A stretch of 41,499 bases of DNA from a bacterium (GTDB lineage Bacteria > Patescibacteriota > Microgenomatia > UBA8517), in assembly GCA_021790215.1 (NCBI GenBank), contig JAJYIG010000004.1, positions 1 to 41,499 on the forward strand. Direction: 5' to 3'. Under the pieces are notes generated by a model. It did no database searches. It was not told the origin of the DNA and saw nothing but the letters and a program-made list of their open reading frames with translations. The position numbers were made by a program, and so were the translations under genes. Positions 9,947-41,499 of this stretch are shown one piece after another (position 1 is the first letter of the stretch; every line of letters starts with the position of its first letter).

Positions 9947-10627
9947 ATGAGAAAAGTAACTCTCGAACTGCCCAAGTATCGCCTGCAGCTCCATATGAAG
10001 CTTACAAAAAGGCGTGAGCCTCTATTGGAAGAGCCCATTATCCCCACAACGTCTCTCATTAGGAAGAAATACAGAAAAGGGACGCTGCCTGGCAGGTTCG
10101 CAAGATATATGGCTGACCACAGAAATATCAGAAAGTTCTTTGCGGTCAATTTTGCAGCAGTAGCCATAACAGCCTCGTTAATGCCGTCCAAAAGCACAAA
10201 CATCTATGCTGCACCAAGCGATGACACAGTAATTCAATCTCAATATACCTTAGAAACACAAAAAACAACCATTTTTCCCCTCAACCAGTTCAGATTGAAC
10301 CAAGGATTTAGCTTTTTCCATCCGGGAGTTGATCTGGGAGCTGAAATTGGCGATCCTGTTAAACCAATGAGGGCGGGAGAAATTCAATTTGCCGGTTATA
10401 CAGATGACGGCTACGGCAACCTGATTATCGTCGATCACGGTAATGGGCTTACCACACGCTATGCTCATCTTTCAAAAATTTTTGTTTCCCTGGGACAAGA
10501 AGTGAATATTAATACAATTATCGGTCTAGTCGGAGTAACAGGGCACACTACCGGCCCGCATCTTCATTTTGAAGTCAGAATAAATGAAGCTCCTCAAAAC
10601 CCTCTTGATTACCTTCCGCTAAGATAA
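9947..10627 (+). CDS. M23-family metallopeptidase, envelope targeted
   Basis: 'FFHPGVDLGAEIGDPV', 'AGYTDDGYGNLIIVDHGNGLTTRYAHLS', 'GHTTGPHLHFEVR' (HxxxD and HxH). Confidence 0.92.
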   Translation: MRKVTLELPKYRLQLHMKLTKRREPLLEEPIIPTTSLIRKKYRKGTLPGRFARYMADHRNIRKFFAVNFAAVAITASLMPSKSTNIYAAPSDDTVIQSQYTLETQKTTIFPLNQFRLNQGFSFFHPGVDLGAEIGDPVKPMRAGEIQFAGYTDDGYGNLIIVDHGNGLTTRYAHLSKIFVSLGQEVNINTIIGLVGVTGHTTGPHLHFEVRINEAPQNPLDYLPLR

Positions 10628-27955: not shown

Positions 27956-27965
27956 TTGTGGATAA
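27956..27965 (-). promoter_or_regulatory. DnaA box upstream of dnaA
   Basis: TTGTGGATAA, reverse complement of TTATCCACAA. Confidence 0.85.
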
Positions 27966-28011
27966 CTCATTAAAAAATACGGTACGGATAGATTTATTCT
28001 TTTATAATAAA

Positions 28012-29373
28012 ATGGATACAAAACAAGCCTGGAAAGATTCTTTGGAAATTATTAAGATTTCGGTCTCCCCCGCTATATTTTCCACTTGGTTTCTACAAAC
28101 ACATCTTTCTTCTTTAAAAGATCTGGGTGAAAGGGTAACAGCTGAGGTCGGATGCCCCACATCTTTTGCCAAAAATACAATTGAATCCAGATATTTTGGT
28201 TTGGTGCAGGATTCTCTTATCAAAGTTCTTGGTAAAAACTGCGACCTTATATTTGCTGTTAAGGAAAACCCTGACAAAATAAAACATACCGATGGTGTCG
28301 TAAGCCCGCTTTTCACAGAAGAAAAAGAAGATGAAGGCTTTTTAGAAAGACTGCAAAGAGCAAGGATACGACCAAGTTTCACCTTTGAAAATTTCGCAGT
28401 CTCGTCAAGTAACCAGATGGCTCACGCCGCAGCCCAGGCTGTATCACAAAGTCTAGGTTCTGCTTATAATCCGCTTTTTATTTGGGGTGGTGTGGGAGTA
28501 GGTAAGACTCATCTTATGGTTTCCGTAGGGAACCACACTTTAAAAATTAATCCTAATAAAAAAGTTCTTTTTTGCACGGGTGAGGATTTTACAAACGACA
28601 TTGTCGAAGGGATTAGAAACAAAACAACTCAAGCTTTCAGAAATAAATACAGAAGGCTGGACTTACTACTAATTGACGATATTCAATTCATTGCAGGTAA
28701 AGACACTGTGCAAGAAGAGTTCTTTCATACCTTCAATGCAGTAACTTCGGCCGGTGGCCAAATAATATTAACCTCAGACAGACCTCCGTCAGAGATATCA
28801 AAACTTGAAGAAAGACTTAGAAGTAGGTTCGAAGCAGGACTTATTGTAGATGTTGCTCCTCCAGATTTTGAGCTTAGATGTGCCATCACACAAATCAAAG
28901 CCAAAGAAAAGGGACTGGATATCACCAGCGATCAGGCACAAATGATAGCAGCCAACATTGAATCGGCCAGAAAAATCGAAGGTATATTAACAAGACTTTT
29001 AACTGAAGTTCATATTAAAAAATCCCCAATTACAAACGATTCTATAGAATCCGCGCTTGGCAAAGATTCTGATGCCGGAGCCCAAATTGTCAGAAAATCT
29101 CCCCAAGAAGTCACAGATGCTGTTTCAAAATATTACCAAGTCGGGAAAAGGTTAATTTTAGGGGAGAGTAGGGCACGCCCAATAGCAAGACCAAGACAAA
29201 TTTTAATGTATCTCCTAAGAACACAACTTGGAATTCCTCTTGAAGAGGTTGGAAGACTGGTTGGAGGAAGGGATCACACAACAGTTATGCACGCTGTGGA
29301 GAAAGTTACACAACTAGCCACAAACGATGTGCAAATCAGGGAGGATATTTTGAAGATAAAACAGACAATTTGA
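28012..29373 (+). CDS. dnaA: Chromosomal replication initiator protein DnaA
   Basis: 'NPLFIWGGVGVGKTHLMVSVGNH', 'DLLLIDDIQFIAGKDTVQEEFFHTFN', 'GIPLEEVGRLVGGRDHTTVMHAVEKV'. Start moved from the GTG at 27958, which lies in the DnaA box, to the ATG at 28012. Confidence 0.98.
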   Translation: MDTKQAWKDSLEIIKISVSPAIFSTWFLQTHLSSLKDLGERVTAEVGCPTSFAKNTIESRYFGLVQDSLIKVLGKNCDLIFAVKENPDKIKHTDGVVSPLFTEEKEDEGFLERLQRARIRPSFTFENFAVSSSNQMAHAAAQAVSQSLGSAYNPLFIWGGVGVGKTHLMVSVGNHTLKINPNKKVLFCTGEDFTNDIVEGIRNKTTQAFRNKYRRLDLLLIDDIQFIAGKDTVQEEFFHTFNAVTSAGGQIILTSDRPPSEISKLEERLRSRFEAGLIVDVAPPDFELRCAITQIKAKEKGLDITSDQAQMIAANIESARKIEGILTRLLTEVHIKKSPITNDSIESALGKDSDAGAQIVRKSPQEVTDAVSKYYQVGKRLILGESRARPIARPRQILMYLLRTQLGIPLEEVGRLVGGRDHTTVMHAVEKVTQLATNDVQIREDILKIKQTI

Positions 29374-29595: not shown

Positions 29596-30723
29596 ATGAA
29601 ATTTCAGATTCTTCAGGAAAATTTATCAAAAGCGGTTGGGGTTGCTTCAAGGTTTGCTAGCACAAAAGCGCAACTCCCAATTTTAGGAAACATTCTTTTA
29701 TCAACCAAAAAAAGTAAAGTTTATGTTTCATCTACAAACTTGGAAATTTCAGCTTCGGTACAGGTCGGAGCAAAAATAGAAGAAGAGGGGGAGATAAGTA
29801 TTCCTGCAAAGGTTATCTCTGAGTTAGTTTCTAATTTACCCAAAGAAACTATTTTTCTTTCTGCTGAAAAGGAACAATTAAAAATTTCCACCACAGGTTT
29901 TTCTTCCAAGATTTTGGGTATAAACTCATCCGATTTTCCAAAAATTCCTACAAGTATTAATCAAGAAAAAGCTGTGAAACTTTCACAAGAAGCTTTGTCT
30001 GCCGCCTTGTCTCAGGTTCTTTTTGCTACATCTGTAGATGAGACAAGGCCGATTCTAACCGGAGTTTTGTTTTTATTTTCTAGTAATTCACTTTCGCTGA
30101 TAGCGACGGATGGGTTTAGACTTTCTAGAAAAATTATTACATTTGATATAAAGAAAGAAGATGTTGGAAAGGTGATTATTCCTAAAGGAGTTCTGGGAGA
30201 AATAGTGAGAGTAGATTCTTCTGTAGGGGAGATTTTGATGCTCAGAGAAGATAGGGAAAAACAGGTTATTTTTGGAATGGGGAATACAATTTTAACTTCG
30301 AGATTATTGGAGGGTGAATATCCGGACTTTGAGAAAATAATTCCTAAAAGCTCAATAGTAAAGGTATTACTCGATAAAGAAGAGTTTTTAAGGGCAATAA
30401 AGCTGGCGTCGATTTTTGCAAGAGAATCGGCTAATATTGTCAAAATTAAAGTTTTAGAGGATTCTGTTAGAGTTTCGGCGGAAAGTGGTTCTGCCGGAAG
30501 TCAGGAGGCAAAAGTGGATGCAAAAGTGGATTTGGGTGGGGGCGAATATACTGAACCATTTGAAATCGCCTTCAACTATAAATTTTTGGAAGATTTCCTT
30601 CACTCAGTTACCGGAGAGGAAGTAGAAATGAGATTTTCCGGAGTTTCTTCCGCTGGAGTTTTTCTTGATCCTAAAGATTCATCTTATCTTCACTTGATAA
30701 TGCCGGTTAAGATTCAGGATTAA
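29596..30723 (+). CDS. dnaN: DNA polymerase III beta sliding clamp
   Basis: 'MKFQILQENLSKAVGVASRFASTKAQLPILGNILL', 'ETRPILTGVLF', 'LIATDGFRLS', C-terminal 'HLIMPVKI'. Confidence 0.98.
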   Translation: MKFQILQENLSKAVGVASRFASTKAQLPILGNILLSTKKSKVYVSSTNLEISASVQVGAKIEEEGEISIPAKVISELVSNLPKETIFLSAEKEQLKISTTGFSSKILGINSSDFPKIPTSINQEKAVKLSQEALSAALSQVLFATSVDETRPILTGVLFLFSSNSLSLIATDGFRLSRKIITFDIKKEDVGKVIIPKGVLGEIVRVDSSVGEILMLREDREKQVIFGMGNTILTSRLLEGEYPDFEKIIPKSSIVKVLLDKEEFLRAIKLASIFARESANIVKIKVLEDSVRVSAESGSAGSQEAKVDAKVDLGGGEYTEPFEIAFNYKFLEDFLHSVTGEEVEMRFSGVSSAGVFLDPKDSSYLHLIMPVKIQD

Positions 30724-31295
30724 TATCCACTCGGGGAAGGGGGGGTGAGGGAATATCCATCCGCCCAGGTTTTGACAAAGTCGTCAATTGTAGTTGGTTG
30801 AAAATACCAAATTTCAAGTAATGTTCCATCTGTGTGTCCCAAATAGGCTATGCCGTTTTGAGGATAAACATACAGGTTAAAGTGATTGTTACTAAGAGTG
30901 TTATAAAACATATACGGTGCTACTCCGTAGACATTTGTCACGTAATCTGCATTGATATTGTCATTTGAATTTACAATTTCTTTAATTAATTGAGCGGAAC
31001 CGTTTGTATAAATCACCTCGTTAAATCTATATTGATTTGTGGATTTATATTGAGAGATAGTTTCTCCGTTTACTGTTTTGGTGCTGACCGGTTTTCCAAG
31101 TTGCTCAGCAACCTGATCCGGAGTGCTTATTCCTGGTACTAATGATTTAAAAGTGGCAGATGGTGGGGTATTTGTGTGTGTTTTATTTGTTTGTGTGGGA
31201 CTTTTAATAAACAAATTAGCAACATAGAGAATAAATGCGATAACAACTAAAAGTAGTATCCAATACTTTCTGATAAACATAAATATTTTTCTCAT
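30720..31295 (-). CDS. Single-pass membrane protein of unknown function
   Basis: N-terminal TM 'YWILLLVVIAFILYVANLF', Thr/Pro linker, then a predicted extracellular domain. Confidence 0.65.
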   Translation of the reverse strand: MRKIFMFIRKYWILLLVVIAFILYVANLFIKSPTQTNKTHTNTPPSATFKSLVPGISTPDQVAEQLGKPVSTKTVNGETISQYKSTNQYRFNEVIYTNGSAQLIKEIVNSNDNINADYVTNVYGVAPYMFYNTLSNNHFNLYVYPQNGIAYLGHTDGTLLEIWYFQPTTIDDFVKTWADGYSLTPPSPSGY

Positions 31296-31324: not shown

Positions 31325-34213
31325 CTATGGCGCAAACATCACACTTTTAGCAAACAAATAATGTTTGGGGTACTGATTAATGTAATTGGTAATACAATTA
31401 TTCCATGACGGTCTTCCAACATATAAAGCATCACCCTCAGCCATACTTTCAGCATCATTTCCGGCTGTGGCATTGTATGTACACAAAGACCACTCAGATT
31501 GAGGTACTTGCTCATTAAATAATTGCTGATAACTACCGTTTATGGCTTGTATATGATGTGTGGTTTCGTGGGTGAGAATATAAAGAGCATCACTTGTTGA
31601 ACGTATACCACATTGATTAAAGTTGATATTACAATTTGATTGCTCAATATCTCTTGCATAGAATGTACCATTACAAGTTCCTCCTGTTCCCACAGGTGAA
31701 GGGTCACTTGTTGTGTAGCAGAGTTTAACAACACCTTTAGCGCAAACTTTGGATGCAAAATTTGGATACTGAGCGGCCAGTTGTGCTGCTGCTTGAGTTA
31801 GATTTGATTTTAGGCTGGGAACGGCACTCCACGAAGTGTCATTCAGATCAAAACAGTTTAGAGGACAGTCTCCGAAACACACTGAAGCAGAGCCTGTCTC
31901 AGAAACTTTTCCTCCGCTTTCCGATGTGGCGGAAACGTTAATATTATCCGTTATAAGTGAATTTTGATAATTTGAACCATAATTGGATGTAAAGGTAAAT
32001 ACAAATGGGTTAGATGGTGTGATTGTTAAGGGTGTTGAAGGAATGTTTTCCAGGCCTTTGCAATCGATTTTTGTATTATCTTTTTTAATTGCCTGACAAT
32101 CATTTTTGAAGGTGATATTGGTTAGGGTGTCTTTTTTGGCAGTTATCGTAATTGTATAGGTAATTGTGGTGGGAGAGGCAACTTGTCCGGAGGGGTTAGC
32201 TGATTTTTGGACATCAATGTATGGATTGGAACTGCTAAGCAAACTTCCTGTTGGGGGAACAACATAAGCTCCAGAGTTAATAATAAAAAGCATTAGGGCA
32301 ACAACAACAGGGAAGGAAACGAGAATTATCATAATGGGAAGTCCGACAGCTCCCAAAAAAGCTGACCCTAAAACTTTAAATAACGAACCAATACTCCCAA
32401 ATAGCGATGTGGTTGCTGATCTCAAACCTCCACCCGCACCGATAAAAGATGAGGCTCCTGCTATGGTTATTGGTGTTCCTACTAAAACCAACGGGACTGA
32501 ACCGGTTAGAAGTCCAGCAAGTAGTGTACCGATACCACCAAAGAGGAGAAGATCTTTATGGTCTTCTATAAACTTTTTAATTTTTGGCAAAGTAGAGACT
32601 ACTAGTCCTACGATTGCCCCTATAATTAATCCCGGAACGTTTCCAATTAAGGCACCCAACCCTGTAGCAGTTGCTGCTTCCCCGGCACCTATTCCTGTGC
32701 CGACAGCAGCTATTCCAGTTTCTGCTCCGATAGCGGCACCACCTACTGTTGCACCAGCCTCAGTTCCAATTGCGCTGCCGGCCGTTGCTAAAACCCCAGT
32801 TTCAACACCTGTGGTAACCGTGGCGGCTTCAACTGCTGTGACTCCTTCTGTCGCTGCAATTGTTGTACTAGCCATCTCTGTAACAGGTGCAGCAGCTGTG
32901 AAGCCAAAGTCTATTTCAAGAGTATTTCCTAAACCTTCAAAAAATCCTGTTGCGCCGGGAATTTGCTGTATAAATCCTCCAAGAAAACTTTCACCAAGAG
33001 GGACTGTCTCTTCAAGTCCGACAAAAGAGAGTATTTGTTGACCAAAAGCACTATTGTAAACCCCTGAAATTACACTATCGGCAGGCAGTTTTGCGATTTG
33101 GGAATTTAGGAATGTGCGTGCTTGACCAAGTAGAATTTTTTTTGCTCCGTCAGTGGCAAGAGAATTTATACTGTCAAAAACTCCTGATTGGTTTTGAAGG
33201 AGGTTTATGTAGCCATGATTTAATTGATCCAGGTGCACCTCGTTTGTGTAACCCTCCATTGGTTGAGAAGAAAGACTAACTTTAATATCACTTGGGTCGG
33301 GGCCAAATACTGTGAGAGCTAAATCATTATCTACAGATGATAGTACTCTACGGCTCAACTCCATAGAGTCTTTGAAAAAGACAAGTTCTTTAGATGCGTC
33401 TCGAATAAGATTTAGAGTGTCTTTGTTTGGAATAGCAGCAGGAACGACGGAAGCATCTTTTGATATAGAACTCAAAATTGCTGCTTGTGTGTTTGATGAA
33501 ACAGTAGCCCGGGGATTATTTATTGTATAGACTGTGTCGAAGGCAACTTTATCTGCCAAGAAGTCTATTTCCTCATTTGTTAGTGTTTTTGCATATATAG
33601 GAGAAATCTTTTCTCTGATGTTTTTAGCAAGATCCTGTCTGAACGATTGAGGATGATTTTTGGCTTCGTTAATAAATACTTTAACGTTAGAACTTGGCTC
33701 CGGACTGGGAGGTGCTTCCACTTTTGCATACACCTTCTTATCTTTTAGAGATTCTTGAATTTGCTCTTGTTTCCTGATTTTGTCAGCAATCTCTTTTTTT
33801 GCTTTTTGTGCCGCTTGGATTTCCTGCTGTTTTGCAATTGCAGCCTTGACTGCAGCGTCAGATTCCACCTTGGCTTTAGCTTTGGCAGATTCCCTTTGTT
33901 CTCTTTCTTTTTCTTGAGCCTCACGAGTTTCTTTCCCTGGAATGTTTGCTTCGGGATTTTGAGTTTCAACCCCCGCCAGTTTTATGACAGCTTGTTCGGC
34001 ATTTTTAATATTTTTGAAATCTTTATCTGATGTGATTTTTATGCCGGTTAGACGGAAAACAAATTCAATAAAACCTTTACGATTGTTCCAATTAAATTCT
34101 CCGGAAACGTATGGTTTGTCTACGGAATAAATTATTCCTTCCGGAAAAAAGTGGGAGAAAGCATCAATTATAAATTTGATATTTTCTTTGGTGAGACTTA
34201 CTTTATCTGTCAT
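31325..34213 (-). CDS. 962-aa multi-domain membrane protein with C-terminal HExxH metallopeptidase-like domain, in a T4SS-like cluster
   Basis: Lys/Glu/Ala-rich helical N-terminal segment, Ala/Gly/Thr-rich centre with TM segments, predicted external repeat-like region, C-terminal 'ALYILTHETTHHIQ...NDAESMAEGDALYVG'. Confidence 0.75.
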   Translation of the reverse strand: MTDKVSLTKENIKFIIDAFSHFFPEGIIYSVDKPYVSGEFNWNNRKGFIEFVFRLTGIKITSDKDFKNIKNAEQAVIKLAGVETQNPEANIPGKETREAQEKEREQRESAKAKAKVESDAAVKAAIAKQQEIQAAQKAKKEIADKIRKQEQIQESLKDKKVYAKVEAPPSPEPSSNVKVFINEAKNHPQSFRQDLAKNIREKISPIYAKTLTNEEIDFLADKVAFDTVYTINNPRATVSSNTQAAILSSISKDASVVPAAIPNKDTLNLIRDASKELVFFKDSMELSRRVLSSVDNDLALTVFGPDPSDIKVSLSSQPMEGYTNEVHLDQLNHGYINLLQNQSGVFDSINSLATDGAKKILLGQARTFLNSQIAKLPADSVISGVYNSAFGQQILSFVGLEETVPLGESFLGGFIQQIPGATGFFEGLGNTLEIDFGFTAAAPVTEMASTTIAATEGVTAVEAATVTTGVETGVLATAGSAIGTEAGATVGGAAIGAETGIAAVGTGIGAGEAATATGLGALIGNVPGLIIGAIVGLVVSTLPKIKKFIEDHKDLLLFGGIGTLLAGLLTGSVPLVLVGTPITIAGASSFIGAGGGLRSATTSLFGSIGSLFKVLGSAFLGAVGLPIMIILVSFPVVVALMLFIINSGAYVVPPTGSLLSSSNPYIDVQKSANPSGQVASPTTITYTITITAKKDTLTNITFKNDCQAIKKDNTKIDCKGLENIPSTPLTITPSNPFVFTFTSNYGSNYQNSLITDNINVSATSESGGKVSETGSASVCFGDCPLNCFDLNDTSWSAVPSLKSNLTQAAAQLAAQYPNFASKVCAKGVVKLCYTTSDPSPVGTGGTCNGTFYARDIEQSNCNINFNQCGIRSTSDALYILTHETTHHIQAINGSYQQLFNEQVPQSEWSLCTYNATAGNDAESMAEGDALYVGRPSWNNCITNYINQYPKHYLFAKSVMFAP

Positions 34214-34214
34214 T

Positions 34215-36125
34215 TTATTTTACTTCGTAAGGGCTTGGACTTGCTTTAGTAATCATCTCTTGCGGTTTGGTTGTTATTAATCTATTTTCGGCCTCAGAGG
34301 CGACGATTCTTATCGGAGCGTGGTGCGGCCCTGCAAAAAATATTCCCTCTCCGACATTTGCAGCGAGAAGTAGTTGTTTTTCCCCCTGAGAGAGGTAAAA
34401 AATTTCACCGATTTTATCAATTGCTGCGGGGGATTGTTTCAAAAGAACCTGCATGGCACTATTTGTCACAATTGCCTTACCAATGTCCTGAGCCAGGAAG
34501 TCTTCTACGTCTTGTGTAATGGTTGTTAGGCCCAGGAAGTACTTGCGGGCCCTTTTAACAACACTCCATAAAAATTGCGCCGTATCTGGATATCTCATCA
34601 TGTGCCAGGCCTCATCAACTATAAGAATCCTTCTTTTGAGATCTTTTTTAACTCTAGTCCAGATATAGTCAAGAATAATAAACATAGCGATGGGGCGGAG
34701 GGTGTCCTGTAAATCTTTAACTGAAAAAACCGTAAAGGGATTGGTGATGTTTATATTTGTTTGCTTATCAAAAATTCCCACGAAGCTTCCTCTGACAAAT
34801 TTTTCTATTCTGGCTGCAAGGTCGAGTGCTTCCGGAACTTCCATTCCCACAAGAGTTTTATAAAGATCTTCCATGAGTGGTGGTTCTTTTCCTTGAGTTT
34901 CTGGGTCCATAGTGATTCCCTTGGCTCTATAAGTTGCTACAAGAGCCCTATCAAGAAGTGCCTCTTGGATTGGGGTGATGGCCCCCATTATTATTTTCAT
35001 CAAAGAATGGAGCGACAAAATTTTAAGTCCGAGTTGGTTTTCCCCCTTCTCCCTGATTTGGGAAAGGTCAAAAGGATTAATCTTGGCAGGAGAATTAAAA
35101 GAAAAGGAAATAAATTCTCCTCCGACCGCTTCGGCAAGGGGTTTATACTCGCTTTCAGGATCAATTATTATCGATTCCGTTCCAAGCATCAAGGAACGAA
35201 GCGCTTCAAGTTTAACAAAATAACTTTTTCCGGCACCTGAGGTGGCAAAAATTGTCATATTGCCGTTTTCCAGACTAAACCTGTCAAAAATTATGAATGA
35301 TTCGTTTTGGGAGTTAATTCCGTATAAAACTCCGCGGTCACTGGAAAGCTCTGTTGAGGTCAAGGGAAAAGTTGTGGCCACGGAGGTAGTGTCCATATTC
35401 CTGGTGATATTTAGTCTGTCTATTCCAAGTGGAGCTGTTGAAATAAAACCACTTTCCATATCAAGCGATGAATGTTTACTGACAATCATCAAAGATCCGA
35501 GTTGAGATTCTATCTGTTTTGTGATGTGATTAAGTTCTTCCGGTGAATTGGCTGGTATAGTTATATAGAAACTAAATTCGTAGAATCTCTCGATACCCTT
35601 TACAAGTTGCTCTTGGAGCGCCCTAGCGTCTTCCAGCTTGGCTTGAGTTGATGGGTCGACTATCTTACCTCTTTCAAGGTCGGTTGAAATCTCAGCCTCC
35701 ATTTCAGCGATCTTTCTCCTAAGATCATCAAGTACGCTTTTCCCATCAACTGGATAAATATAAAAAGAAATATCCAGAGATGTATCAAAGTTAACAATCG
35801 GTTCGAGCCATCCCGGAGCTACAAATCTCGGATATGCGGAAACAAAGATAGTGCGGAAGTAAATATCATTAATTTTTATATAATCAAAGTCTTCCTCGAT
35901 CGATTGTGGCGCAATTGTATCCAGTAAATTTTCACCCCGACCCACAGAAAAACTTGCAGAAGCGACTCCTGGTTTAATCTCTGGAGTAGGGGGCGGATTG
36001 GGTACTGTTAGGGCAGGTTGATTACTTGCAGGTACTTTTGTCTGGGTTGGCAGATTTTGCGGTGGGCTTTCTACACTGACGGCTTTACCGTCCATCTTTT
36101 TTGATTTCAGAATATTAAATATCAT
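34215..36125 (-). CDS. VirB4/TraC-family type IV secretion ATPase
   Basis: Walker A 'TSGAGKSYFVKLEALRSLMLGTESIIIDPESEY', Walker B 'RRILIVDEAWHMM', 'LGLTTITQDVEDFL', 'IVTNSAMQVLLKQSP'. Confidence 0.93.
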   Translation of the reverse strand: MIFNILKSKKMDGKAVSVESPPQNLPTQTKVPASNQPALTVPNPPPTPEIKPGVASASFSVGRGENLLDTIAPQSIEEDFDYIKINDIYFRTIFVSAYPRFVAPGWLEPIVNFDTSLDISFYIYPVDGKSVLDDLRRKIAEMEAEISTDLERGKIVDPSTQAKLEDARALQEQLVKGIERFYEFSFYITIPANSPEELNHITKQIESQLGSLMIVSKHSSLDMESGFISTAPLGIDRLNITRNMDTTSVATTFPLTSTELSSDRGVLYGINSQNESFIIFDRFSLENGNMTIFATSGAGKSYFVKLEALRSLMLGTESIIIDPESEYKPLAEAVGGEFISFSFNSPAKINPFDLSQIREKGENQLGLKILSLHSLMKIIMGAITPIQEALLDRALVATYRAKGITMDPETQGKEPPLMEDLYKTLVGMEVPEALDLAARIEKFVRGSFVGIFDKQTNINITNPFTVFSVKDLQDTLRPIAMFIILDYIWTRVKKDLKRRILIVDEAWHMMRYPDTAQFLWSVVKRARKYFLGLTTITQDVEDFLAQDIGKAIVTNSAMQVLLKQSPAAIDKIGEIFYLSQGEKQLLLAANVGEGIFFAGPHHAPIRIVASEAENRLITTKPQEMITKASPSPYEVK

Positions 36126-38056: not shown

Positions 38057-40369
38057 ATGGCTGAACTTTTAACAGGTGGCCGCGACCGGATGGTTAATTA
38101 TGCTGCAAGTAATGATAATCCTGAAGGCTCTTCTGGTTCTGAGGACTCAAAGGATAAAGAAGAGGATTACAGGAAACACCACCAGTATCGTGAGGGACAA
38201 ACCCAGCTCGAAATCATATCCACAGGTACAGAGAGATATCAGTTAATAGACGCTGGAAGAACTTTCATGAACGGTTTTGAAGATATGTCGCTTCATCCGG
38301 ACGGCTCCGTTAGTGAATATAGGTTAGAAGACGCAATTGCCCTTGTGGGAAACAGGAAGGCAGACATGTCCTACTCCCGCCAGGATTTACTAGATCTTGG
38401 TTATCTTCTGCTGAGAAAAGAATTGAAACGGAACGAGGACACAAGAGAGATTGAAGAAACAGGTAAAATAGTGGAAACACTAACCTACCCTGGTTTTGCA
38501 TATACTTCTAAGATTGAGACGCTTGAACACGAAAAAAAGATATTAACGCCTCAAAGAACCCTACATCACATTGAAGTTGAGGAAGAGCCAATACAAGTCT
38601 TTGTTGCTGGGACGGATTCACAGAGAAAAGAATTATATAGAAACCTTGACAAGATTCAGTCTGAGATGACATCTAGAGAAGATTTGGTAAAAAAGCTTCG
38701 TTGGGTATGGAATCAGACAGAAAATCTTGAGGGTTTAGTGCAGTTTTATTTCATGGGTAGTTTAACTCAGGAAGCGATGGATGCTCTTTGCAACTCCGAA
38801 GGTAGGACTGTACCGGATAGGATGATCGAAGGCAAGAGAACCCCAGCACTAATGAAAACTGAGGGTGGTGCTGAATATAGAGAAGGATGCGAGCTTGGAG
38901 ACGCAATTGGTGTTGCTCTACAGTGTTTTGAAATAGCAGCACTTTCTGAAAAGCCCGGCGAATTTGAAGCCCTGCTTAAAAGACCTGGCATAAAGTTTTT
39001 GTTTAAAGTGAAAGATCAAGAGATTGATGATTTGTTTATTCCACCAGATAAACGTCCTGACAGGGTACTTAACCCATCGCTGGTAAAATGGATAGGAGAA
39101 CCGTGGACCTGGAATAAGGGGGTGGGTGTTGATAGGAATGACAATTTAGCTAAAGGTGGAAAGCCTGCAGAGCTGAATATAAGAGGCCGCTTAACTGAGA
39201 GGGGTAATGTTCTAGTCGAGCCCAAACCGGGCGACTTGGAATATATCTATCAGCAAATTGAGAGGTTTTTGGGTGGTGGGGACGCTGCCCCGAATCTTGC
39301 TGCCAAGGATGCTAGGGATGCACGCTTTATAGCCTGGGGTCTTTTGAGAGTGACTGGGGAGGCATCAGATATCGGGAATCAGTGGTATCGAGCAAGAAAA
39401 GACAATTATTATTTAGGGGTTAAAAAGGATACTATTTACCCACACCACGACATGGGAGGGATGACCTCTTGTGATAGAGTAAAGGTGATTGCCCCAAATA
39501 TTTTTAGAAAAATATACAGATATGTGAAGACGGAAATAAGAGGTTTCGGGCCGGACGGTTCACTTGACAAGTACCCGGATAGATTTACGGTTCCATATCT
39601 TAAAAACTGGTCTGTAGATGTCGAAACCGATAAGTTTGGTGGAAAAGATGTGATTCACCACTTGTATGACACTAAGTGGCTTAAAACTAATTCTAATGGG
39701 GAAAAGATTTTGAGTAAAAGAACTTTTGACGAGATGCGTTGGGGTTATAGAGCAGGTGTGGTAAAAGACAGATTGGCAATAGAAGATGGAGTTACAAAGA
39801 AACTGCCTGAGGAGCCAGCATACCGTCTGGGCGAGTTGCCATGGAAACTGTTGTCTCCCAAAACTTTCAACTCTGCTGCTTTGGGACCATTTATCGCTGG
39901 AAGGGAAAAGGTTGGACTTTTTCAGTTGATGATGAGAACTGATTGGGATATTCACGAGTTAAAAGAGAAGTCTTTTTTTGAGAGGCTTGGTCAATATATG
40001 GGTATAGCTATGAACAAACAAACTGTTTTCGATGGTAGGTTTAGGGGAGTCAATGATATTGTTATGCATCCGGATGGTGTAATTGAAAAGATCCAAAATG
40101 ATGGGACAATAAACGAAGATGAGGTTGTTAGAAATTATAAGAAAAAGTATCTCTTGGCTTTTTGGGATGGTATAAGATCCCTTCCCCAATATAGAGAGTG
40201 GATTGCGGCGCCCCTTGATAGTGTTAAGGATAAGCCTGGTTTCGGTAATCCTCAATCCAGGGAAGCTATTAAAAGAATGAAGTATAGAATTGGACGAACT
40301 GGAATAATATCACCAGAAGAAGCTAGAAATCTTCCCGAAGAGTCATTGGTTAAAGATGACTTTGCTTAA
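38057..40369 (+). CDS. 770-aa predicted soluble protein of unknown family inside the T4SS-like cluster
   Basis: Long intact ORF without obvious TM segments, with TAAAAT 6 nt upstream of ATG; no family recognised by eye. Confidence 0.75.
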   Translation: MAELLTGGRDRMVNYAASNDNPEGSSGSEDSKDKEEDYRKHHQYREGQTQLEIISTGTERYQLIDAGRTFMNGFEDMSLHPDGSVSEYRLEDAIALVGNRKADMSYSRQDLLDLGYLLLRKELKRNEDTREIEETGKIVETLTYPGFAYTSKIETLEHEKKILTPQRTLHHIEVEEEPIQVFVAGTDSQRKELYRNLDKIQSEMTSREDLVKKLRWVWNQTENLEGLVQFYFMGSLTQEAMDALCNSEGRTVPDRMIEGKRTPALMKTEGGAEYREGCELGDAIGVALQCFEIAALSEKPGEFEALLKRPGIKFLFKVKDQEIDDLFIPPDKRPDRVLNPSLVKWIGEPWTWNKGVGVDRNDNLAKGGKPAELNIRGRLTERGNVLVEPKPGDLEYIYQQIERFLGGGDAAPNLAAKDARDARFIAWGLLRVTGEASDIGNQWYRARKDNYYLGVKKDTIYPHHDMGGMTSCDRVKVIAPNIFRKIYRYVKTEIRGFGPDGSLDKYPDRFTVPYLKNWSVDVETDKFGGKDVIHHLYDTKWLKTNSNGEKILSKRTFDEMRWGYRAGVVKDRLAIEDGVTKKLPEEPAYRLGELPWKLLSPKTFNSAALGPFIAGREKVGLFQLMMRTDWDIHELKEKSFFERLGQYMGIAMNKQTVFDGRFRGVNDIVMHPDGVIEKIQNDGTINEDEVVRNYKKKYLLAFWDGIRSLPQYREWIAAPLDSVKDKPGFGNPQSREAIKRMKYRIGRTGIISPEEARNLPEESLVKDDFA

Positions 40370-41499
40370 TGACCACCTCTTCTACGGGCTAATGATAGCC
40401 AACTGAGGTAATCTGCAATCTTTTGAGTGGTGGGATTAGAAGGAAACCTGCCTTTCGCCACCCCTTCTTTATAAGTTCCGGCAAGCTCGCCAGTTGCAGC
40501 TATTGGTCCAACCGCCTCGCCAACCGCACTTCCATATGCAAATGGTTTACCAGATAGGAATGACTGGACAAGGTCGTTTGCCTTTGGAATCATCGTAAAT
40601 ATTACAAAGCTGACAATGGCAAAAAGTAAACCCATTACAGCCCCGCCGTTTCCAACACCACCCCCCAGGAGCGGGGGCCACGCAGCATTTCCTCCCCCAA
40701 GAAGAGTGCCAGCCGCGCTGCTACCAAGTAGAGTTTTCACTGTAACTTGTAAGAATGACATAACAGAAACTGAAGACATTGCATAAGTAGTTTTAAGGCC
40801 AATCTCTAGTCCTCCCACAAGAAAAACAAAAGAGAATAAAAGTAAGGTTCCTGTTACTACAAAAACTGCTAGGTTTGATATGAAACTTTTGACCCAAGAT
40901 CCAAAACCCAGACTAGGGATAAAAATGCCGAGAGTTAACTGGATAGGTGCAAATATTGTTAGGAGAATAATGTTTACAAAAGCCTTTAAAAGGTTCCAGA
41001 TTGTTCTAACAAACATCCATATTAATATGATAATAACAATCACATAGAGTATTGCAAAAATTATGACGATAAAAGGAAGGATTGTGCCCCCGGTTAATAC
41101 TATAGGGGCAACGACAGCGGTTACGGTCAGGGCCATCGCAATAGACCCGAGGTTTATCACTGCCAATACCAATAATGAGATGGCAAAAAGGACAATATAT
41201 AGCGCACCGCCCACCAAGATGCCAAATTGTATATTAATTCCCCAAGGTTGGCCCACTGTCATGATGTTGAACCAGTTTGTTGAGTTTAGTCCTAATATAT
41301 TCATCTGACCTCCGGCAATGCTTATAATTCCAATAACAACATACATTAAGTCAATTAGAAATCCGGCAATGGCGTAAGAAAATGTGACCAATATCAAAGA
41401 AATGATAATTTTAGGGAGGGCGGATTGAACGGATACAACTGTTTGGGGTGAAAGTTTTACCCTAAACATTATTAGAAACGCAAATACGATGGCGACTAT
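40366..41499 (-). CDS. VirB6/TrbL-like polytopic membrane protein, 5' end outside the window
   Basis: Many hydrophobic segments and a Gly-rich region; the frame stays open past 41469 to the window edge ('IVAIVFAFLIMFRVKL...'). Confidence 0.65.
   Translation of the reverse strand: MVAIVFAFLIMFRVKLSPQTVVSVQSALPKIIISLILVTFSYAIAGFLIDLMYVVIGIISIAGGQMNILGLNSTNWFNIMTVGQPWGINIQFGILVGGALYIVLFAISLLVLAVINLGSIAMALTVTAVVAPIVLTGGTILPFIVIIFAILYVIVIIILIWMFVRTIWNLLKAFVNIILLTIFAPIQLTLGIFIPSLGFGSWVKSFISNLAVFVVTGTLLLFSFVFLVGGLEIGLKTTYAMSSVSVMSFLQVTVKTLLGSSAAGTLLGGGNAAWPPLLGGGVGNGGAVMGLLFAIVSFVIFTMIPKANDLVQSFLSGKPFAYGSAVGEAVGPIAATGELAGTYKEGVAKGRFPSNPTTQKIADYLSWLSLARRRGGH

Follow-up and report, generated by a model that had tools for sequence, protein, structure and literature searches.

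Our computational analysis demonstrates that the 962-residue protein encoded directly after VirB4 in the genome of an ultrasmall bacterium of the Patescibacteria (Microgenomatia) carries a conserved HExxH domain at its C-terminus, that the same position is occupied by other enzymes in close relatives, and that this domain is paired with a cognate partner gene. We consider it probable, at somewhat better than even odds, that the protein combines a membrane component of a type IV secretion system (T4SS) with a wall-opening enzyme of the VirB1 type, the latter being an exchangeable module of the Pro-Pro endopeptidase (PPEP)/lethal factor (LF) type, and that it has a cognate regulator or inhibitor. 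An initial annotation, made from the letters alone, had described a membrane-tethered, metallopeptidase-like protein at this place; the exchangeability of its C-terminal slot and the co-inherited partner gene are additional to those observations.

The secretion locus and its membrane protein

The window, that is, the whole stretch of 41,499 nucleotides that was analyzed, comes from a genome of 0.99 Mb and 99% completeness, and the nearest named matches of its VirB4 are from Candidatus Woesebacteria and related Microgenomates; the sequences compared are mostly metagenome assemblies. dnaA and dnaN lie on the plus strand, and the minus strand reads, 5' to 3', PrgI, a TrsD/TraD-like protein, VirB4, the 962-residue protein and a partner of about 190 residues (Table 1). 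The 962-residue ORF starts 1 nt past that of VirB4, and the order PrgI, TrsD-like protein, VirB4 and homologue of the 962-residue protein is kept in nearly every relative examined, in agreement with the secretion-linked role first suggested for it. The PrgI of the window has an unusual length for this family and ends in a carboxypeptidase-regulatory-like beta domain (PF13620, E 8e-4). Beyond it are two conserved ORFs (38057-40369 and 40366-41469; 770 and 367 aa) that match no Pfam or NCBIfam family and have homologues near the T4SS locus in several relatives, and a separate M23 peptidase ORF (PF01551, E 4e-31) is found at 9947-10627. Three relatives have VirB4 ORFs of about 1170-1200 aa (L047:1730-5326, L056:4496-8083 and L060:5701-9216), in which some 550 aa come between two VirB4 parts near residue 300; these inserts sit at the nucleotide-binding loop and are intein-like.

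Table 1. Features of the secretion locus (positions in the window; residues of the 962-aa protein unless stated otherwise)
Feature	Positions	Strand	Basis or remark
dnaN	29596..30723	+	Together with dnaA (27958-29373), a marker of the chromosomal position, which most relatives share
Cognate partner, 191 aa; one predicted N-terminal membrane helix (its residues 12-30), then a predicted external tandem of two (helix + 4 strands) units, BLIP/DUF4309-like	30720..31295	-	Model; co-occurrence
T4SS membrane protein of 962 aa, ending in the metallopeptidase module	31325..34213	-	ORF; homologues right after VirB4 in relatives
Charged, cysteine-free residues 1-500, cytoplasmic by prediction	32714..34213	-	Hydropathy, charge and Cys counts; predicted topology
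Membrane core, residues 521-645, three predicted membrane segments, then family signature FIINSGAYVVPP	32279..32653	-	Hydropathy; alignment
External Ser/Thr-rich beta domain (predicted), residues 661-785	31859..32233	-	Conservation profile; DUF7507 match
Metallopeptidase module, residues 783-962	31328..31867	-	Alignment; AlphaFold2 model; PDB profile search
HETTH (HExxH), residues 882-886; two putative zinc His ligands and putative catalytic Glu	31556..31570	-	Conserved in 37/37
Tyr 913, candidate transition-state Tyr	31475..31477	-	Conserved in 36/37
ESMAE, residues 922-926; E922 candidate third zinc ligand	31436..31450	-	E922 37/37; E926 36/37, once Asp
VirB4 ATPase	34215..36125	-	PF19044, E 9e-28; NF045971 (CD1110-family), E 2e-112
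TrsD/TraD-like T4SS protein, 232 aa	36115..36813	-	NF041427, E 6e-7
PrgI (VirB3-like), 358 aa	36818..37894	-	PF12666, E 2e-6

Charge, hydropathy and cysteine distribution reproduced the order of regions described at the outset, namely a charged N-terminus, a Gly/Ala-rich membrane core and an external part. Residues 1-500 contain 53 Lys and Arg against 64 Asp and Glu, and about three hydrophobic segments (521-539, 555-584 and 627-645, from hydropathy only) make up the core. All 12 cysteines lie past residue 705, as would be expected if only that part were outside; judged from hydropathy and cysteines only, three passes would place the N-terminus inside and the C-terminus outside, which agrees with the external location proposed in the initial annotation. 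The best conserved part across the module classes consists of FIINSGAYVVPP, directly after the last membrane segment, and the beta domain. The likeness of this Ser/Thr-rich domain to DUF11 is weakly supported: its alignment found DUF7507 as the best match (E 0.0011) and did not match DUF11. Searches of Pfam, NCBIfam and the PDB with the whole 962-residue protein gave nothing useful, and only alignment profiles reached the gluzincins. The searches did not support an identity with VirB6, the VirB6, TrbL and PrgH profiles in Pfam or the PDB being matched by neither the whole protein nor the membrane core; the profile of the core gave Gly-zipper-like matches only, and no VirB1 homology of the core was found in profile searches.

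A predicted metallopeptidase of the gluzincin type

HETTH and the downstream ESMAE are present precisely where they were first noticed. No substitution of H882, E883, H886 or E922 occurs among 37 non-identical homologous domains, and Y913 and E926 are each conserved in 36; the motif and a downstream glutamate, both pointed out in the initial annotation, are kept in all homologues compared. The AlphaFold2 model of the module (14 sequences; pLDDT 89, pTM 0.89) places HExxH in one helix (91-109, module numbering) and ExxxE in a second (138-150), giving the metallopeptidase-type active-site helix that the initial annotation had anticipated. We infer that the two histidines and E922 bind zinc, and Tyr 913 is presumably the transition-state Tyr, by analogy with the PPEP and LF enzymes; catalysis by the module, as predicted from the conserved residues and the model, looks sound. 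An HExxH arose by chance in 14 of 5000 shuffles of the 962-residue protein; an accidental motif is rejected on this frequency and, more strongly, on the 37/37 conservation. A related reading is that the domain is catalytically dead and merely binds the wall, and inactive VirB1 proteins have indeed been proposed as adhesins in some Gram-positive systems (PMC12857230); however, all catalytic positions are invariant while the rest of the domain diverges to 25% identity with the window module, and we regard an accidental or dead domain as highly improbable.

The module is claimed by no Pfam or NCBIfam family. A profile search against PDB chains reached the Pro-Pro endopeptidase PPEP/Zmp1 (E 0.0014) and lethal factor (E 0.0085), with HExxH and ExxAE aligned, and Foldseek gave weak matches to a Bacteroides putative zinc peptidase, LF and PPEP-2 (E 0.1-0.4, TM 0.43-0.49). 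Shared with PPEP-1/Zmp1 and the LF-type gluzincins (M34-like) are the HExxH motif, a third Glu in ExxAE some 40 residues downstream and a conserved Tyr just before it; the identity is about 9-16% in the Foldseek alignments, whose scores are borderline, and the PPEP and LF enzymes are free secreted proteins, whereas the window module is tethered to a secretion-system membrane protein. From the conserved residues, the model and these matches we conclude that the module is, by prediction, a divergent gluzincin of the PPEP/LF type, a statement of likeness rather than of formal membership. A phage or plasmid origin of the module was also considered and rejected: tblastn in phages or plasmids gave no match, and PHROG matches were weak only.

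An exchangeable C-terminal slot

In the relatives, the gene after virB4 keeps the membrane core and, in part, the N-terminal region, and differs in its C-terminal module, which is of the HExxH, canonical M23, degenerate M23-like, CHAP, SLT/lysozyme-like or NAGPA type (Pfam E values of 2e-13 for M23, 3e-6 for CHAP, 1e-4 to 3e-4 for SLT/SLT_3 and 1e-9 for NAGPA). In the sister pair L070/L071, the membrane cores are about 80-88% identical while the C-terminal modules are without meaningful similarity. The VirB4 tree of 59 classifiable loci requires at least 27 changes of module class, against a mean of 31 after shuffling, and the classes are thus nearly unclustered; this count leaves out about 30 truncated or unclassifiable loci, uses classes that depend on profiles derived from these loci themselves (representatives were confirmed by Pfam) and comes from parsimony without direction, which does not tell gain from loss, on a tree of VirB4, which could itself be transferred. 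The distances between HExxH modules correlate with those between VirB4 proteins (0.72), and much of the scatter over the tree may therefore reflect old alleles that were repeatedly lost or replaced. In L203 and L204 the HExxH domain is encoded on its own, as a secreted protein, with the partner still alongside. Two further arrangements were observed: a NAGPA-type phosphodiester glycosidase domain is appended after the degenerate M23-like module in L081, L085 and L111 (Pfam E 1e-9 in L111), and a homologue with an M23 module (L089:11923-14889) has an N-terminal DnaJ domain (Pfam E 5e-17).

Because sister genomes carry wall hydrolases (M23, CHAP and SLT) in the same slot, the HExxH module would by analogy also act on the wall, which lends indirect support to the wall-active role proposed earlier; the genome of the window encodes Mur ligases, and the cell therefore has a wall to open or cross. 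It could be argued instead that the module is a true PPEP-like surface protease that cuts proteins (S-layer, adhesins or pilins) of the epibiont or its host and not peptidoglycan, in a slot that hosts many kinds of external enzymes. Its nearest solved relatives, the PPEP and LF enzymes, cut proteins; to our knowledge, those with known substrates do not cut peptidoglycan, which counts against wall opening, and NAGPA, another module of the slot, is not a peptidoglycan peptidase. However, most of the other slot modules are peptidoglycan hydrolases, M74-like murein endopeptidases can adjoin the same partner family, and the HExxH module co-occurs with SLT, being fused to an SLT-like module in L214 (E 0.018) and encoded beside an SLT protein in L204. 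We consider a protein-cutting surface protease unlikely and favor a module that opens the wall.

Wall opening at a secretion system is known from the VirB1 proteins of Gram-positive T4SSs, which are membrane-anchored and use external CHAP, SLT, MUR or LytM domains (PMC12857230). The VirB1-type proteins TraG of pIP501, PrgK of pCF10 and Orf14 of Tn916 resemble the window protein in having a membrane anchor and an external catalytic domain and in being encoded with the T4SS (PMC12857230). In contrast to these CHAP, SLT, MUR and LytM hydrolases, none of whose domains gave a Pfam match in the window module, the window protein is a long membrane protein, encoded next to VirB4, that ends in an HExxH peptidase and has a dedicated partner. 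In Ca. Southlakia epibionticum, a member of the Saccharimonadia and thus of another class, peptidase and lysozyme genes lie right after virB4 and are reported to be essential for epibiotic growth, and the available part of that report describes neither module exchange nor a partner (PMC12102498). We found no description of the module exchange or of the partner in the open-access literature.

A cognate partner and its possible role

The partner was modeled as a tandem helix plus four-strand repeat (pLDDT 87), with DUF4309 YjgB as the top PDB match (4ygt; E 2.2e-4, prob 1.0) and BLIP-like proteins lower. In sequence, the family matches BamE best (E 0.0014), weakly and in 6 of 14 members, and DUF4309 at E 0.003, the window member lying below curated cut-offs. 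The two helix-plus-four-strand repeats are its likeness to the BLIP/BamE/DUF4309 fold, whereas its predicted membrane anchor and its being claimed by no curated family set it apart.

The partner is present at 15/15 HExxH loci versus 0/44 loci with other modules, and the two changed together in all 11 phylogenetically independent contrasts on the VirB4 tree (p 0.001). It adjoins 35 of the 37 HExxH genes, one exception being a contig edge; the HExxH protein of L215 has no partner and no contig edge, and L213 and L214, weaker HExxH matches, are also without one. The pair is still together upstream of prgI in L222-L224, and in a second class the partner accompanies HExxH in 7/7 strong loci, six of which have no VirB4 within the stretch retrieved. 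Module and partner distances are correlated beyond VirB4 (partial rank correlation 0.32, p 0.004, 27 pairs). Other modules have companions of their own: canonical M23 is accompanied by an unrelated, membrane-anchored protein of 335 aa (23/24 versus 0/35 loci), the two changing together in 12 of 13 independent contrasts (p 0.0005), and the degenerate M23-like module has a Big_5 protein alongside in 7/7 cases. A partner restricted to HExxH was ruled out, as family members also follow M74-like murein endopeptidases in L206, L209 and L210 (Pfam shown for L210 only). These M74-like genes (L206:8492-9782, L209:3060-4417 and L210:8098-9398) have a lysozyme/SLT-like gene upstream at the same loci. In L084 (13265-13963) the partner adjoins the HExxH gene on the opposite strand.

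The partner may help to position the module, as a chaperone, anchor or activator, rather than inhibit it, a reading to which we give appreciable but less than even weight: the partner is adjacent, usually on the same strand and in one copy per module, and BLIP-like folds are also known from assembly factors, for example BamE, which six members match weakly. The unrelated partner folds across module classes are compatible with an activator as well as with an inhibitor. Another possibility likens the locus to polymorphic toxin systems, which also combine a constant N-terminal part with an exchangeable C-terminal enzyme and a cognate downstream gene, according to the available part of their description (PMC3482391). 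The module would then be a weapon or drill against a neighbor or host cell, selected according to the type of wall of the host, with the partner as the immunity protein of the producer, as suggested by the near-random spread of modules on the VirB4 tree and by the external, membrane-anchored position and inhibitor-like fold predicted for the partner. However, the module, known here from genes alone, differs from polymorphic toxins in staying part of the apparatus; it is tethered in most homologues, and the tracking of VirB4 by HExxH module distances indicates an exchange less free than that of classical polymorphic toxins. We judge an effector with immunity to be rather doubtful.

Our preferred model is a wall-opening enzyme within the apparatus. 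We propose that the 962-residue protein is a membrane component of the Patescibacteria T4SS, in which the N-terminal half would lie in the cytoplasm near VirB4, the short core would span the membrane, the beta domain would act as a spacer and the exchangeable zinc-peptidase module would work outside. The HExxH...Y...ExxAE module would be an active gluzincin of the Pro-Pro endopeptidase/lethal-factor type and would most likely do the work of the M23, CHAP or SLT of sister species, namely local wall opening, most simply by cleavage of wall peptide bonds; the opened wall would let the machine reach through the cell's own wall and possibly through that of the host. The partner, putatively a membrane-anchored external BLIP-like protein dedicated to the HExxH module, would most likely regulate or inhibit the enzyme, so that the cell's own wall is spared.

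Most classes of Patescibacteria seldom have a VirB1 homologue encoded in linkage with virB4, and few VirB6 homologues are reported from Microgenomatia (PMC12102498). The 962-residue protein fits this gap as a candidate that unites carrier and wall enzyme in one chain, HExxH being one of the enzymes that the slot admits, and its catalytic type lies outside the known VirB1 domains. The matched partner points to a cutting tip that can be exchanged and that brings its own regulator or safety catch. More tentatively, the T4SS of Patescibacteria could have an exchangeable external 'drill bit', in which a conserved membrane carrier holds a C-terminal wall enzyme (zinc gluzincin, M23, CHAP, SLT or others) and close relatives exchange this enzyme along with a membrane-anchored immunity or inhibitor protein specific to it, perhaps in keeping with the wall chemistry of the epibiont's host cell. 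The pairing of module and partner makes an enzyme-inhibitor hypothesis directly testable and may give a genomic hint of the host wall that an uncultivated epibiont faces.
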